A DNA stretch of 64,000 bases from Deltaproteobacteria bacterium HGW-Deltaproteobacteria-12. Its GTDB lineage: Bacteria; Desulfobacterota; Syntrophia; Syntrophales; Smithellaceae. Each line of letters begins with the position of its first letter. Positions within the stretch are counted from its first letter, which is position 1. Shown here in pieces: positions 4,249 through 18,661 of this stretch. The translations under genes and the position numbers were made by a program. Below the pieces are notes generated by a model. It had not been told where the DNA came from. It searched no databases and was given only the letters and a program-made list of their open reading frames with translations. The stretch lies in the NCBI GenBank assembly GCA_002840565.1, contig PHBK01000010.1, positions 184,375-248,374 of the forward strand, read 5' to 3'.

Positions 4249-4939
4249 TGCAGTAATTGTTTCGGTCATTATACCGGTGCTGAACGAAGCCGAACGCATC
4301 AGCGAAATGCTTCATTCGCTTAGGTTTTCAGGCGGGAATGTGCCCCGTGAAATTATTGTTGTGGACGCCGATCCGGCGGGAAACACCATCGCCGGTATTT
4401 CCGATCCCCGCGTTATCAAGCTAACCGCGCCCAAAGGCAGAGCAAGCCAGATGAATGCAGGGGCCGCGCGGGCAAGCGGTGACATTCTTCTCTTTTTACA
4501 TGCCGACACGCTCCTGCCGAAAAACGCGTTGAGCAAAATAGCAGCCGCCCTGGTCGACGGGCGTTACGTCGGGGGTGCTTTTGATCTGGGGCTTTCGAAT
4601 CCCCGCTGGATCTTCCGCCTCACCGGTTGGTGCGCGTCGCTCAAACACCGCCTGACGCGCGTACCGTATGGCGATCAGGCGATTTTTATCCGGCGGAACT
4701 ATTTTGAAAGCCTGGGCGGTTATCCGGCAATTCCCGTCATGGAAGATGTGGAACTGATGAAGCGCGTAAAAAGGCAGGGCGGCCGCATTATGATTTTACC
4801 CGAGGCCGTCGTCACCTCTTCGCGCAAGTGGGAGAAAGACGGCGTGGTTTACACGATATTGCGCAACTGGGTTCTCCAGGCGCTTTATCTGTTCGGTGTG
4901 CCGGCTGAACGGCTGGTGAAATATTATTATAAGGAATGA
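4241..4939 (+). CDS. Glycosyltransferase, family 2 (rSAM/selenodomain-associated transferase 2, TIGR04283 type)
   Basis: A GT-A fold glycosyltransferase of 232 residues. It opens with SVIIPVLNEAERI, carries DADP in the first domain, GRASQMNAGA, and the metal-binding region LFLHADT. VPYGDQAIFIRR with GGYPAIPVMEDVEL gives the acceptor-side motifs. This subfamily is the regular partner of ArsS clusters. The start is GTG at 4241, overlapping the arsS stop by 8 bases; nothing upstream in this frame looks like the family. It probably transfers a sugar to the deoxyadenosyl-arsenical or a related intermediate (inference from context). Confidence 0.87.
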   Translation: MSDAVIVSVIIPVLNEAERISEMLHSLRFSGGNVPREIIVVDADPAGNTIAGISDPRVIKLTAPKGRASQMNAGAARASGDILLFLHADTLLPKNALSKIAAALVDGRYVGGAFDLGLSNPRWIFRLTGWCASLKHRLTRVPYGDQAIFIRRNYFESLGGYPAIPVMEDVELMKRVKRQGGRIMILPEAVVTSSRKWEKDGVVYTILRNWVLQALYLFGVPAERLVKYYYKE

Positions 4940-8168: not shown

Positions 8169-8567
8169 TCAGGAGGAATACTGGCGCACCTTGTCCATAA
8201 TTTGATCATCGGCCATTTTATCTGCATCTTCAAAGACTACGATGCGGCGGGCCAGATTATTTTTTCCGAGACGGTTTTTCAGTTCGTATTTGGCATCGCC
8301 CGCCCCAAAAATAACAATTTCCCCGGCACTCCAGATGTTGTCAATAATCGCATCATAGTAAGGTCCCAAAACTTCTTCCATCTTGATTTTATTTCTGCGG
8401 GCTGCAGCGGGATCCTGCCTGGCTTCCGAATTCGAGGAAACATTATTGACAGCATGAATTTCATCTTTGATGGCTGATTTAACCTTTGTTATTTCTGCAC
8501 TCATGTTTGTTACCGATACTATCACCGCCTGCCGCTCGTCCAACCATAAACCTATTTTAGCCGCCAT
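8169..8567 (-). CDS. Conserved small protein, eRF1-/host-attachment-like fold
   Basis: A 132-residue protein opening with KIGLWLDERQAVIVSV and ending with a block like IVIFGAGDAKYELKNRL followed by RIVVFEDADKMADDQI. That order matches a small family often named host-attachment-like or eRF1-domain-like (RNase H/baeRF-type fold), where the GPG/GAG-A-KxEL block is the conserved core. No cellular role is established. The ATG at 8567 has AAAGGAG upstream. It is convergent with the flavoprotein gene and is probably monocistronic. Confidence 0.55.
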   Translation of the reverse strand: MAAKIGLWLDERQAVIVSVTNMSAEITKVKSAIKDEIHAVNNVSSNSEARQDPAAARRNKIKMEEVLGPYYDAIIDNIWSAGEIVIFGAGDAKYELKNRLGKNNLARRIVVFEDADKMADDQIMDKVRQYSS

Positions 8568-8838
8568 TGATTTCTCCTTTCTGGTCTAATTCACTTTGTT
8601 TACTAAAAAACCGACAAGAACTTTACAGATTACATCTATCAACAAATTCCATCCCCAAGAAGAATACAGGGGGTTATTTTCTCTGGGATAATGGACAAGC
8701 AACTAGCGTACCACAATGTTATACAATCAATCTCGGTTTTATAGATGATGTAATACATTGATTTTATGTATTAATTTCTGCCATAAAGGAAGCCTAACAA
8801 GAAGAGAAGCTGAGGTAATCATTTTTTCATATAATACA

Positions 8839-8857
8839 TTGTAAAGAATTCCGACAG
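8839..8857 (+). repeat. 19-bp motif copy 1 (TTGTAAAGAATTCCGACAG)
   Basis: It shares TTGTAAA-[G/C]AA-nn-CCGACA with the copies at 8929 and 9685, all in the same orientation. The copies look like binding sites rather than coding sequence. Confidence 0.6.
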
Positions 8858-8928
8858 TTTCAATAAGGATTTAGAGAGGATTTTAGGACAACATCTTGAT
8901 ATTACAATATTTTATAGACAATTCCTAG

Positions 8929-8947
8929 TTGTAAACAAAACCGACAG
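8929..8947 (+). repeat. 19-bp motif copy 2 (TTGTAAACAAAACCGACAG)
   Basis: It starts exactly 90 bases after copy 1, in the same orientation, with 16 of 19 positions identical to copy 1. Confidence 0.6.
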
Positions 8948-9020
8948 TAAAGGAACCCAGGTGTAAATGAAATCCGTATTTTACTGTTATTGGGCGATAA
9001 TATATTGATATTGCAGTATA

Positions 9021-9509
9021 TTACATCAGGTAGGTCTGAAGTGCTTTATAATTCTTAAAATCAGCATCAACAAAGGTGGCGCCGACAAAAATACTGTCTT
9101 CGCCATCAACCACTCTTTGCGATTCATAGGACAATCTTATAGGTTTATTCTCGGCAGGCAAATTGAAAACAATCTCAAATTTGGAACCCTGCGAATCAAT
9201 CACGAGCTGATGTTTGAAATCTTTGGGAATCAAAACTCGGACTCCGCCAAGGGAAATATCCGTGATGGTACCTATGGCCATTTGTCCAGGTTGCTGTTGA
9301 TCAATGACTGCGGGCACAGAAAGAGGCTTTCTAGGATATTGACGTTTTTCATTTCCAACGCCCTGCAATGCTTTTTTTTCTTTCAGATAGGTGGTCAGGG
9401 CTATTTCAATCGTTGACGATAAAGACCGCCGGTCTTTTTTTGCAACTTCCGCAATGGCTTTATGTAAGGCCTTGCTGGTGCGGAAACATATGAGGCTGTC
9501 TTTTGTCAT
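9021..9509 (-). CDS. RHH-PilZ protein: ribbon-helix-helix-like N-terminus plus PilZ domain
   Basis: Residues 1-48 (CFRTSKALHKAIAEVAKKD, then SLSSTIEIALTTYLKEKK) match a ribbon-helix-helix DNA-binding fold: a short strand, then two helices. Residues 56-160 are a PilZ domain: KRQYPRK carries the RxxxR-type c-di-GMP-binding arginines and DISLGGVRV the D/N-x-S-x-x-G motif. The combination suggests a small regulator that reads c-di-GMP and binds DNA. Part of this is inference, since RHH folds are hard to prove by eye. It stands alone between two motif-rich gaps, which may include its own operator sites. ATG at 9509 is followed upstream by AAAGGTTATT. Confidence 0.8.
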   Translation of the reverse strand: MTKDSLICFRTSKALHKAIAEVAKKDRRSLSSTIEIALTTYLKEKKALQGVGNEKRQYPRKPLSVPAVIDQQQPGQMAIGTITDISLGGVRVLIPKDFKHQLVIDSQGSKFEIVFNLPAENKPIRLSYESQRVVDGEDSIFVGATFVDADFKNYKALQTYLM

Positions 9510-9940
9510 AATAACCTTTATTATTAAATAAATATCTAATCTTAATTAAGGTAAGCATAAACCGTACCTAAAAATTACCCCCCGACACATATTGACGTTA
9601 CCATTCGTAATTACTATCTATTTTTGAATAATATATTTTAAATGATATAGATAAATTGCTTTTCTCAGAGAACACCTACATTGTGTTGTAAAGAAGTCCG
9701 ACAATTGTTACTCTCACTTTAAATCTTAATTCTTGCTCTCCAGCAGAGCTGAATTCACTCGAAATTCTTCCTAGAATTTGACATTCGGGTTAGTTTTACA
9801 TATACGGTTAGCGAGTTCGGGGGACATCCAGTTCGTTTGAAGAAAGAGGGGAACTGGTCTATAAGGCTGAAAAAGGACAATGGGTCCGCTTGACAGGATG
9901 GATAGGCGAGGAATAATAAATCAAAAAGGAGAAATGATAA
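9510..9940. other. Intergenic region, one copy of the 19-bp motif
   Basis: About 430 bases, AT-rich near the PilZ gene. It contains the third 19-bp motif copy (9685-9703). No coding frame is supported, and no -24/-12 promoter is visible. Confidence 0.5.
9685..9703 (+). repeat. 19-bp motif copy 3 (TTGTAAAGAAGTCCGACAA)
   Basis: It matches copies 1 and 2 at TTGTAAA.AA..CCGACA in the same orientation. It lies on the other side of the RHH-PilZ gene, about 255 bases before the alpha/beta hydrolase start. Confidence 0.6.
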
Positions 9941-15896: not shown

Positions 15897-16220
15897 TTAG
15901 TATACCCTGATGCCGGTTTTCATAACCTCTGCCGACATTGGGTTATCTTTTTTAAACTCTGAAATCAGGTAAGGATGCGGTTCGATGTCCGGGTCAATGT
16001 CCCGGGCTATTTTCATCAGAAGAAATTTAAAGTCGAAACTGTCACCAATAAATTCCTTCGTTAATAGCGCCACATCAATGTCACTCCACTGAGTGGCCGT
16101 GCCTTTTACGTAAGAACCGAAAAGATAGGCCTCATCAATTTTTATATTCCTCTTCCTGAGTTCCTCGATATATTGCCTGATATGCTCATAGACTAGCTTT
16201 TTAGTTTTTCTTTGAGCCAT
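15897..16220 (-). CDS. MNT-domain nucleotidyltransferase (antitoxin of HEPN/MNT pair)
   Basis: A 107-residue minimal nucleotidyltransferase. The active-site motif FGSYVKGTATQWSDIDVALL has the GS..KG and SDID pattern in which two Asp residues bind metal. MNT proteins of HEPN/MNT systems neutralise the HEPN RNase, in studied cases by adding AMP residues to it. The gene overlaps the 3' end of the HEPN gene by 28 bases, the usual order (HEPN first on this strand). GC content is lower than the flanking hydrolase gene, consistent with acquisition. Confidence 0.88.
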   Translation of the reverse strand: MAQRKTKKLVYEHIRQYIEELRKRNIKIDEAYLFGSYVKGTATQWSDIDVALLTKEFIGDSFDFKFLLMKIARDIDPDIEPHPYLISEFKKDNPMSAEVMKTGIRVY

Positions 16221-16585
16221 TTTCTTAATCCTTTAATTTTGACTATGTTTTCTTCTGCAAATTTCTTCGTACATTTTTTTCGCATATTTTGTCTGTATTC
16301 ATCGTAACGGGTCTCAATGTTAAACAGTGTAATGTATTGCAGATCATCCTTTTTTTCTTCATCAAGGTCAAGCCCTGTTTTAATAGCAAGTTTAAGGAGA
16401 TCATGAGTTCTTGGAACCTCGGCACTGACTATCTTAACATAATAGGCTTTGAGTAATTTTTCTATAAGAAGGTGCCCGATAAACAATGACCACATGTATT
16501 CCCGCGTTTTCAGCATGTTCATCATTGATTTATAGTTGTTGTCAGAAGAATTAATCCAGGAATCTATATTCTCCTGTTTTCCCAT
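16193..16585 (-). CDS. HEPN-domain protein (toxin of HEPN/MNT pair)
   Basis: A 130-residue all-helical protein. FIGHLLIEKLLKAYYVK (the conserved E-K-xLKA helix), PRTHDLLKLA and LFNIETRYDEYR are the PF05168-type HEPN landmarks. HEPN toxins are metal-independent RNases acting on tRNA or mRNA. The gene is followed immediately by its MNT partner and is AT-rich. The pair lies between the intact hydrolase gene and a relic of the same gene. Whether it is an active toxin cannot be decided from sequence; the classical Rx4-6H motif is not clearly present. Confidence 0.82.
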   Translation of the reverse strand: MGKQENIDSWINSSDNNYKSMMNMLKTREYMWSLFIGHLLIEKLLKAYYVKIVSAEVPRTHDLLKLAIKTGLDLDEEKKDDLQYITLFNIETRYDEYRQNMRKKCTKKFAEENIVKIKGLRKWLKEKLKS

Positions 16586-16726
16586 TTATCAGCCTTTTCG
16601 CCTACTCTAATTCCGGTAGTCTTTATTAATTTGAGTATTAAATTCAATATATAGCAATTATGCCTTTATACCGAAATACACTTTTTTATTCAATATCTTT
16701 TGATGTTCCCCGAATTCCAAAATCGG

Positions 16727-18661
16727 TCACATCCCTACGTAAGACATGTGTGCCTTGTCCATCAGCAGACACACCTTCGGCGCCGGTTCAATGACCGGCG
16801 TTGCGAAGTTGTCGGTGTCGGCAAAAGCAACTGTGATCCGGACGCGGTGCCCCTGCGTGAACTTGTAGGAAGTGGGCAGCATGCTGAAGATCATTGCAAA
16901 AGGTTCACCGGCCGGAATCGGCGTCAGATCGCTCTGGTAATGCGACTGAAACGGAAGTCCGAGGTTGTCGAAGGGGGCCCGGCCCAGTTTGCGGTGAGTC
17001 GCCCGCAGGACGCCCTCCGTAATATACTCGGATTTGCCGCTGGGATCGACATCTTCCAGGTAAACAAAAACGTCCAGGTCCGCGGCATCGGTTGTGAGCC
17101 ACATGTGGACAACCGGATGGCTCGTCACCTCGAGGTCCGCCTTGAGGGGGGCCGTCGTAAAGGTCAGCCCTTTTTTATCGTTGGCCCGCATGTCCGGATA
17201 TTGGCGTGCCCAGTTGACTGCCGACCATCGTGAATGTCTGCCCGTCGACATCGTATAATCCACAGTGTATATGGCGGAGGCGGCGGGGTCAGCCGACGGA
17301 CTTGTCAGGAGGAAGCCGTCGTTGGCAGAATCAATGCTGCCTGTCTTCCCCCCGGCAAAATAGAAGCGGGACGGTTTTCGGCCGGCGGGCGGCCACTCGT
17401 TTGCTGTCCGCCACAGCCCTTTTTTCGCTGCTTCCATCCCATAGTAATGGATGGGCGGCTCCTTCATGATGCCGTTGTCGATTCCTTTGAGCCAGTAATC
17501 GAACCAGCGGTGGGCCTCCGCCCCGAAATCCAGATCGTCCTGGGAGTTCTTCTCGATTTCACTGTGGTCAAGGGGACGGACGATCAGCCTTCGAGGAACG
17601 GTGAGGTTTTGGTACCAGAAGAACATATCTGCCGTGAAAATATCGAACCAGCCGTTGGTCATGTAAATGGGAACGCCGGCGCGGTTGATCCGCTCGATGA
17701 AGGGATAAAGGGCCGATGGCCCTTCCCAGATTTTGATCTTCAGGGATCCCACGCTGTCCCGATAGGGATAGTCTTTCGCGAAATTTATCGTTTCCGGCAG
17801 CGAGCGGGCGCGTTCAGCCCGCGCCCGGGCAAGAAGCTGGCCGTCCTTATCCGAGTCCACCGGTGTGACCGTTTCGGCCTGGAGGAATGTTGTCGCCCAT
17901 TTGAAAAAGGCGTTGAATGCCGTATTGTAAACACCGCCGGGATATGTAATGCCGTTGTACATCTCCATGGGCGCCGATGTGGGAAAGATGGCTTTCAAGT
18001 GCGGATTGCCCTGGGCGGCCGCTGCCATCTGGATCATGGCCTGAAAGGAATCGCCGTACATACCTATTTTCCCGTTACTCCAGGGCTGGGCGGCGATCCA
18101 GTCCATGATGGCGCTTGCCTCCTGACCGCCCGCTTCGTGGGCAGGGTTCCAGGTTCCAAACGATGCACCCGTACCCGGCCGCTCGACGACAATGACGGCA
18201 TAACCGTGTTGGACCATATTCTTCAGCCATGGCGTTCGGAAAAGAGGATCCATGTAACGCCCTTCAGGGGAAAGCCAGTAACGGACGCGCAACATGGCCC
18301 GTTCCGTCCATCCCAGGGCCATGAGATCGGCAATGACATTTCTGCCGTTCCGGTCAAACAGCGTGAATGTCCTCAAGTACGGTGTATATTTGAAAAGAAC
18401 GGGCAGCCCTTCGGCCGCCGGTCTGCCGTTCTTTGTCGGCAGGATGAGGTCATAGGCCAGCTTTGTACCATTCGGAAGCGGCAGGTAATCCGACGAACGC
18501 CGCGAGCCGTCATAGACGGCCTGCGAGTATCCTTTGTATTGTCCGAGCGCGGATGTCTTTCCGGAAGCCGCGTCAGCCCTCACATATGTGAGGACAGCTA
18601 ATGCCAGCAAGACTGCAACGATGACATAGAGAGTCGTTTTTGTGCCGATAATGTGTGCCAT
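16727..18661 (-). CDS. CocE/NonD-family (X-prolyl dipeptidyl-peptidase-like) exported hydrolase
   Basis: A 644-residue alpha/beta hydrolase with an N-terminal signal/anchor helix (residues 10-28). The hydrolase part has the nucleophile motif IGMYGDSFQA (Ser205), an acid/cap region around YMTNGWFDIF, and the His region RPLDHSEIEKN. The C-terminal ~230 residues form the jelly-roll domain of the family (VTSHPVVHMWLTTDAADLDV; the end carries QGHRVRITVAFADTDN). Family members cleave esters or acyl-amino bonds; the substrate is unknown. A sigma-54 promoter lies 35-50 bases upstream, and a sigma-54 activator gene is divergent. The 3' end is duplicated at 15676-15856. Confidence 0.88.
   Translation of the reverse strand: MAHIIGTKTTLYVIVAVLLALAVLTYVRADAASGKTSALGQYKGYSQAVYDGSRRSSDYLPLPNGTKLAYDLILPTKNGRPAAEGLPVLFKYTPYLRTFTLFDRNGRNVIADLMALGWTERAMLRVRYWLSPEGRYMDPLFRTPWLKNMVQHGYAVIVVERPGTGASFGTWNPAHEAGGQEASAIMDWIAAQPWSNGKIGMYGDSFQAMIQMAAAAQGNPHLKAIFPTSAPMEMYNGITYPGGVYNTAFNAFFKWATTFLQAETVTPVDSDKDGQLLARARAERARSLPETINFAKDYPYRDSVGSLKIKIWEGPSALYPFIERINRAGVPIYMTNGWFDIFTADMFFWYQNLTVPRRLIVRPLDHSEIEKNSQDDLDFGAEAHRWFDYWLKGIDNGIMKEPPIHYYGMEAAKKGLWRTANEWPPAGRKPSRFYFAGGKTGSIDSANDGFLLTSPSADPAASAIYTVDYTMSTGRHSRWSAVNWARQYPDMRANDKKGLTFTTAPLKADLEVTSHPVVHMWLTTDAADLDVFVYLEDVDPSGKSEYITEGVLRATHRKLGRAPFDNLGLPFQSHYQSDLTPIPAGEPFAMIFSMLPTSYKFTQGHRVRITVAFADTDNFATPVIEPAPKVCLLMDKAHMSYVGM

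Follow-up and report, generated by a model that had tools for sequence, protein, structure and literature searches.

Within the 64-kb window (i.e., the whole stretch of DNA that was analysed), two minus-strand genes lie behind a small set of repeated sites. One encodes a 162-aa protein with a PilZ domain and a putative RHH domain (RHH-PilZ), and the other a 132-aa protein. The features are the following, in the order of the minus strand:

9686-9703, minus strand: predicted PrsR/PEP-CTERM box, predicted enhancer of the RHH-PilZ gene (TGTCGGACTTCTTTACAA; exact); box and promoter are kept in the congener and in other species
9554-9569, minus strand: predicted sigma-54 promoter (AGGTACGGTTTATGCT; GG-N10-GC; 9 of 12 consensus positions)
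9021-9509, minus strand: RHH-PilZ gene, 162 aa, with the c-di-GMP motifs RxxxR (56-60) and DxSxxG (84-89)
8929-8946, minus strand: predicted distal PrsR box (TGTCGGTTTTGTTTACAA; exact), 216 bp from the 8698-8713 promoter, conserved in the congener
8839-8856, minus strand: predicted proximal PrsR box (TGTCGGAATTCTTTACAA; exact), 126 bp from the 8698-8713 promoter
8698-8713, minus strand: predicted sigma-54 promoter (TGGTACGCTAGTTGCT; GG-N10-GC; 11 of 12 consensus positions)
8600-8617, plus strand: weak fourth site of the sequence-only reading (TTTACTAAAAAACCGACA; four mismatches at the canonical spacing), in the leader of the 132-aa gene
8169-8567, minus strand: gene of the 132-aa protein, with an aeRF1/Pelota/Balon-like fold according to its AlphaFold2 model and PDB matches, second predicted target

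The sequence TTGTAAANNNNNCCGACA is found exactly three times in the window, always on the plus strand (8839-8856, 8929-8946 and 9686-9703), and not once in 100 dinucleotide shuffles of the window. The sequence-only reading had pointed out three near-identical sites in the same orientation. All three are indeed exact; the third starts at 9686 as an 18-mer, the earlier value of 9685 being that of a 19-mer. The interval of 90 bp between the starts of the first two (8839 and 8929) is confirmed and is typical, since neighbouring boxes are 88-93 bp apart in 21 of 60 cases among the fetched stretches. Read on the minus strand, the boxes are three exact copies of a 17-nt sequence, TGTCGG-N5-TTTACA. 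With up to three mismatches, TTGTAAANNNNNCCGACA has 32 matches in the window vs. 19.5 expected, thus only near-exact matches are informative.

The weaker fourth site, formerly placed at 8596, was rejected as a box: with its four mismatches it is not among the window's matches of up to three, and it lies downstream of the predicted promoter of the 132-aa gene. The leader of this gene (8592-8632) contains a cluster of TGTAAA, TGTCGG and TAAACA half-sites and no canonical box. This cluster is nearly identical in the congener; the stretch around the fourth site being so well conserved, it may have some role.

It had been stated that no -24/-12 promoter is visible here; two are found on the minus strand. 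The promoter at 9554-9569 is 117 bp away from the 9686 box, and the ATG of the RHH-PilZ gene (9509) follows 44 bp after it; the predicted transcript start is at about 9543 on the minus strand. For the promoter at 8698-8713, the distances are 126 and 216 bp to the boxes at 8839 and 8929 and 130 bp to the following ATG, that of the 132-aa gene (8567). Boxes and promoters are retained at both genes in the congener (G002), where the proximal box has one mismatch and a spacer of 127 bp and the counterpart of the 8698-8713 promoter is TGGTACAATAATTGCT. The earlier remark that no PEP-CTERM gene is present holds for the two genes behind the sites, neither of which is PEP-CTERM.

The window also contains the near-palindromes ATATTGTAATATC and ATACTGCAATATC at 8898-8910 and 9007-9019, which are found with small changes in the congener too. 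This near-palindrome, also written ATAYTGYAATATC, was tried as an operator of RHH-PilZ. Copies of GATATTG joined to its reverse complement, at three mismatches or fewer, were counted and compared with 210 permuted palindromes. Four copies lie in PrsR promoters of this genome (count matched by 3 of the 210 permutations, enrichment over the rest by 37) and one in those of the relatives (count matched by 163, enrichment by 153). This candidate, picked post hoc and not clearly enriched, was rejected.

The sections of Haft et al. 2006 (PMC1569441) that concern the motif describe a 17-nt motif 1 which ends in TTTACA, is sometimes repeated and is followed by a sigma-54 -24/-12 promoter. The spacer from its 3'-most copy has a mean of 62.8 bp (range 32-92 bp), and its phylogenetic profile matches PrsR, PrsK and PrsT. 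Compared with the published description and not with the logo, the present box fits motif 1: it ends in TTTACA and agrees in length, orientation, repetition and context. The likeness extends to the orientation relative to -24/-12, the non-coding location, the PEP-CTERM targets and the presence of PrsR, PrsK and exosortase. The difference is that the two targets of the window are not PEP-CTERM.

PrsR is encoded on contig C8 of this genome at 15945-17285 (TIGR02915, 633 bits for a cut-off of 502.6). PrsK (398 bits for a cut-off of 300) and exosortase (E 2e-45, over the curated cut-off) are immediately upstream of prsR, i.e., the three genes whose search had been proposed form one cluster. The likeness to sites of the PrsK/PrsR system, pointed out in the sequence-only reading, is supported: the three proteins are over curated cut-offs and the boxes fit the literature description. 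Two boxes (C8:17548 and C8:17736) are just downstream of prsR, and boxes adjoin prsR in G053 also.

In the 3.99-Mb genome, 52 sites match the 18-mer with no more than one mismatch (14 of them exactly), vs. 12 for the reversed control pattern. The exact 17-mer boxes number 34, and 33 of them are contained in the window and the 20 fetched stretches. Among these, 32 of 33 lie outside ORFs of at least 100 aa; of the 6997 positions of a 37-bp grid, 5797 fall within such an ORF. A sigma-54-like site (score of at least 9 of 12) is found within 140 bp on the TTTACA side of 18 of the 33 boxes, vs. 1 of 33 on the opposite side and 593 of 24032 random positions.

This genome-wide search, which had also been suggested, places the same box before PEP-CTERM genes elsewhere. 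Among 22 box-linked promoters of this genome, 15 enter proteins over the TIGR02595 PEP-CTERM cut-off, and one more enters a gene (L047) with a PEP-CTERM tail in another frame. The remaining six enter (i) the RHH-PilZ and 132-aa genes of the window; (ii) a second RHH-PilZ gene; (iii) the gene of a 209-aa NWCAPTA protein; (iv) a 71-aa Cys-rich ORF; (v) a stretch in which no ORF of at least 60 aa starts within 700 bp on the same strand. The set of 22 excludes another, low promoter of L047 at a distance of 206 and includes one promoter (L044) whose ORF begins 488 bp downstream. For the second RHH-PilZ gene (L031), the nearer 166-aa ORF was counted and not the longer following gene, presumed from its sequence to be htpG.

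Three loci of this genome deserve a separate mention. The gene behind the box promoter of L047 (contig C53, 5544-6212), with its PEP-CTERM tail out of frame, may point to a sequencing error, a pseudogene or a phase-variable gene. The 209-aa NWCAPTA protein (L036, contig C15, 9581-10210) is peptidase-like and secreted as judged by eye and has no Pfam or NCBIfam match; a weak sigma-54-like site is upstream of its gene, 232 bp from a box. A PilZ-like ORF (L040, 6577-6975, minus strand; E 5e-4, just under the cut-off) lies on contig C34, flanked by the two box promoters found there.

The distance between box and promoter was studied with the best site of score at least 8 at 40-140 bp, which yields 46 promoters from ten relatives and this genome, orthologous promoters included. 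In another scan, 18 strand entries have no promoter of score at least 8. The distances are 61-65, 73-75, 85, 93, 96-97, 106-109, 117-119, 126 and 128-132 bp. Their period is 11.1 bp (R 0.72), and none of 1000 uniform sets is as strong. In this genome alone, outside the 61-65 cluster, the phasing does not reach significance (113 of 1000 null sets). A phasing of about 11 bp is compatible with activation from a single face of the helix.

The spacers of this genome, for PEP-CTERM and other targets, are 61-65, 73-74, 85, 96, 117-118 and 126-131 bp. Those of the window (117 and 126 bp) are outside the range of 32-92 bp given in the 2006 description, and the largest of the 46 reach 132 bp in steps of about 11 bp. 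Since the same genome uses spacers up to 126-131 bp, these values are taken as a wider range and not as a failure of the definition.

PrsR is over the cut-off in 17 of 119 genomes, this one included. At least three exact boxes are found in 14 of these 17 genomes vs. 15 of the 102 others (Fisher p 6e-8), and the total over the 119 genomes is 240 boxes vs. 35 control matches. Two of the 15 box-rich genomes (G048 and G050) contain PrsR fragments; when fragments are counted as PrsR, the figures become 16 of 19 vs. 13 of 100. Within one genus, the congener G002, which has PrsR, has 15 boxes, whereas G001 and G003, which do not, have 0 and 1, respectively.

The genomes can be divided further according to RHH-PilZ, with fragments again counted as PrsR. 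At least three boxes are found in 10 of 12 genomes with PrsR and RHH-PilZ and in 6 of 7 with PrsR only (3-18 boxes), vs. 5 of 13 with RHH-PilZ only and 8 of 87 with neither; boxes thus track PrsR first. The 5 of 13 either speak for RHH-PilZ as the regulator or reflect a loss of PrsR from incomplete assemblies, and one of the five (G042) has an exosortase. Two near-complete genomes with RHH-PilZ and no PrsR (G013 and G016) have zero boxes.

There are exceptions on both sides. No exact box is found in G012 and G030, which have PrsR. In G085, 23 boxes are found together with sigma-54-like promoters and PEP-CTERM genes, and its 89%-complete assembly contains neither PrsK nor exosortase nor a PrsR over the cut-off; the lack of exosortase may point to an assembly gap. 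These three proteins are likewise not found in the assemblies of G019 (5 boxes) and G102 (6 boxes). The other exceptions free of PrsR fragments are ten genomes with 3-6 boxes.

The RHH-PilZ protein of the window matches PilZ (PF07238, E 2e-8), as do all 23 homologues compared (23 of 23), and R56, R60, S86 and G89 are invariant in the 23 aligned sequences. As to an N-terminal RHH domain, at E up to 1 RHH_5 is matched in 7 of the 23 homologues, Arc in 6 and RHH_1 in 4 (best 9e-5), and the sole RHH-type match of the window protein is HicB (E 0.07). The AlphaFold2 model (pLDDT 83.5) has two helices, and its PilZ part matches MotI, MapZ and others in the PDB. RHH-PilZ is predicted to sense c-di-GMP.

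There are 34 RHH-PilZ matches in 25 of the 119 genomes. Twelve of these 25 genomes have PrsR, out of 19 with PrsR or a fragment (p 1e-5). The upstream regions of 30 matches were examined, those of G110, G065, G022 and G044:C124 having no usable 5' end; the start in G093:C104 is an estimate. A box (up to two mismatches) and a sigma-54-like site (score of at least 8) precede 14 of the 30 genes, with spacers of 116-120 bp in 11 (this genome included) and 63-64 bp in three. The gene of G050 is counted as positive (spacer 118); its entry shows no pair because the chosen start falls inside a broken N-terminus. Under a stricter rule (box with up to one mismatch), the pair is found before 13 of 30 homologues vs. 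452 of 20000 random 330-bp stretches, taken from a pool rich in true sites.

In this genome, the second RHH-PilZ gene (L031, contig C4, 4676-5176), directly upstream of the presumed htpG, is preceded by two boxes, at 4444 and 4547, and by a sigma-54-like promoter (spacer 63). A third paralogue (L086, contig C1) has no box. It is one of the 16 of 30 homologues without a qualifying pair, which also include those of G045, G037 and G053, where PrsR is present. In G045 and G037 the promoter is kept 41 bp before the ATG and no box of up to two mismatches is found. For the gene of G021, a box is found together with a promoter that is weak (score 7, spacer 117). Upstream of the gene, no sigma-54-like site is found in G013, and the one of G016 is at 257 bp, well removed from its usual position.

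Twelve upstream regions were aligned out of 18, six without a readable box being excluded (L062, one of the 12, is also without box). The box and the -24/-12 elements stand out and the letters of the spacer vary.

A more distant PilZ protein (30% identity over 124 aa) is encoded on the plasmid of Nitratidesulfovibrio vulgaris DP4 (L170, NC_008741.1, 5857-6420), near THxN PEP-CTERM genes and an XrtA cluster. A sigma-54-like sequence, TGGCATGAATGTGGCA, is seen by eye upstream of its gene, and no box of up to two mismatches is found before TGGCATGAATGTGGCA.

For the 132-aa protein, neither Pfam nor NCBIfam gives a family over the cut-off. The best PDB matches of its AlphaFold2 model (pLDDT 79.9) are eRF1, aRF1, Pelota and Balon (E down to 5e-6; Foldseek TM, query, up to 0.67). 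Matches to this protein are found in 7 of the 119 genomes, its own included, and a paralogue is on contig C62. A role linked to the ribosome may be guessed from the modelled fold.

The stretch without ORF mentioned above is on contig C34 (L040, 7440-7733). A box promoter is followed there by 267 nt without a long ORF (none of 60 aa), with a fold z of -3.4 and, by eye, a terminator-like hairpin then Ts at the end. A homologous stretch is found in G085 (L125, contig C121, 329-570), where the box promoter is at 329 and no ORF of at least 50 aa starts within 350 bp. The two share 26 nt at 92%, an alignable core and the end hairpin. They are a candidate PrsR-dependent small RNA, represented by two sequences in which a short ORF is possible. 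The Rfam scan of the candidate gives nothing over the gathering score. With a covariance model on 81 sources, the two founders alone are below E 0.05, the next match being at E 0.051.

The sites of the window are very probably upstream activating sequences of PrsR, predicted to drive the minus-strand RHH-PilZ and 132-aa genes. In the sequence-only reading they were taken for operators of RHH-PilZ itself. RHH proteins often autoregulate, and the boxes do flank the gene; moreover, the RHH-PilZ genomes overlap those with PrsR and, among genomes without PrsR, box-rich ones are 5 of 13 with RHH-PilZ vs. 8 of 87 without. This claim is given up here, since the same box also precedes PEP-CTERM genes at other places of the genome, with a constant helical phase relative to sigma-54-like promoters, and since 6 of the 7 PrsR genomes without RHH-PilZ are box-rich, i.e., no different from those with it (10 of 12); G013 and G016, with RHH-PilZ and no PrsR, have no box at all. 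Such operators are thus extremely unlikely. The PEP-CTERM targets and the genome profile of PrsR, with or without RHH-PilZ, lead to the conclusion that the sites are most likely PrsR enhancers and that RHH-PilZ is a target.

Another sigma-54 activator of the same specificity could replace PrsR on these enhancers: this genome has 24 other matches of at least 280 bits to the PrsR model (other sigma-54 activators), and at least three boxes are found in 13 of the 100 genomes that have neither PrsR nor a fragment of it. However, the number of boxes follows PrsR genome by genome, the same-genus contrast included, boxes adjoin prsR here and in G053, and the sections on the motif in PMC1569441 link it to PrsR; this explanation is very improbable. 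It is equally hard to believe that the sites serve PEP-CTERM genes only, the match at RHH-PilZ being a side effect of such neighbours, even though PEP-CTERM genes with their own boxes adjoin RHH-PilZ in G041, G042 and G050. Neither gene behind the sites of the window is PEP-CTERM, and RHH-PilZ has its own box and -24/-12 promoter, with a spacer kept at 116-120 in 11 genomes while the intervening letters vary; two paralogues at separate loci of this genome have both elements.

Control by PrsR being preferred, the PEP-CTERM control system appears to switch on RHH-PilZ here and in several relatives. Computation gives the boxes, the promoter-like sites with their spacings and targets, their conservation and their co-occurrence with PrsR. 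Beyond this, the following chain of events may be proposed. The membrane kinase PrsK would phosphorylate PrsR, which would bind the boxes, and the DNA would loop to the sigma-54 RNA polymerase at -24/-12. ATP hydrolysis by PrsR would open the polymerase, and the genes of PEP-CTERM surface proteins and RHH-PilZ would be turned on together. RHH-PilZ would then sense c-di-GMP and bind operators of its own, which would make a loop that runs from the exosortase programme into c-di-GMP.

The element is of an ordinary kind, i.e., a PrsR enhancer and a sigma-54 promoter, with new conserved targets, chiefly a predicted c-di-GMP-reading regulator. What would be new, judging from the upstream regions, is RHH-PilZ as a target of the PrsR box (14 of 30 homologues in the order with box and promoter, including the second paralogue here). 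In the parts of the reports that deal with it, pepA of Zoogloea and Aquincola is similar, with a sigma-54 PEP-CTERM promoter dependent on RpoN or PrsK-PrsR; unlike here, no c-di-GMP receptor gene is named there among the targets (PMC9850573, PMC9012009). The same parts link PEP-CTERM and exosortase to the matrix of flocs and biofilms of environmental bacteria. According to the portion of PMC3333781 on the plasmid-encoded D. vulgaris regulator DVUA0057, five predicted PEP-CTERM targets are enriched in DAP-chip.

As to the protein, CdbA of Myxococcus xanthus is an RHH DNA-binding protein that binds c-di-GMP (PMC7156744). MrkH, which is a PilZ match to the RHH-PilZ model, is a c-di-GMP-dependent PilZ transcription activator (PMC3828302). 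Unlike in CdbA, a separate PilZ domain would read c-di-GMP here. CdbA is not known to have a PilZ domain, nor MrkH a DNA-binding part of the RHH type. No literature linking PrsR to a PilZ regulator was found in the accessible parts of open-licence PMC articles.

A predicted c-di-GMP-reading DNA-binding protein under predicted PrsR/sigma-54 control would be a concrete link from PEP-CTERM to c-di-GMP, in several families of the order. c-di-GMP is a usual biofilm messenger, and no description of its connection to PEP-CTERM/exosortase was found in the same parts of open-licence PMC. A broader proposal, to which we give about an even chance, is that the PrsR regulon of Syntrophales, and possibly of Desulfovibrionales, includes RHH-PilZ (two paralogues here), the aeRF1-fold protein and the structured small RNA, in a feed-forward network acting via one-face enhancers. 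If this is true, exosortase signalling would be joined to c-di-GMP and to post-transcriptional control, and the PrsR regulon would extend beyond a switch for surface proteins.
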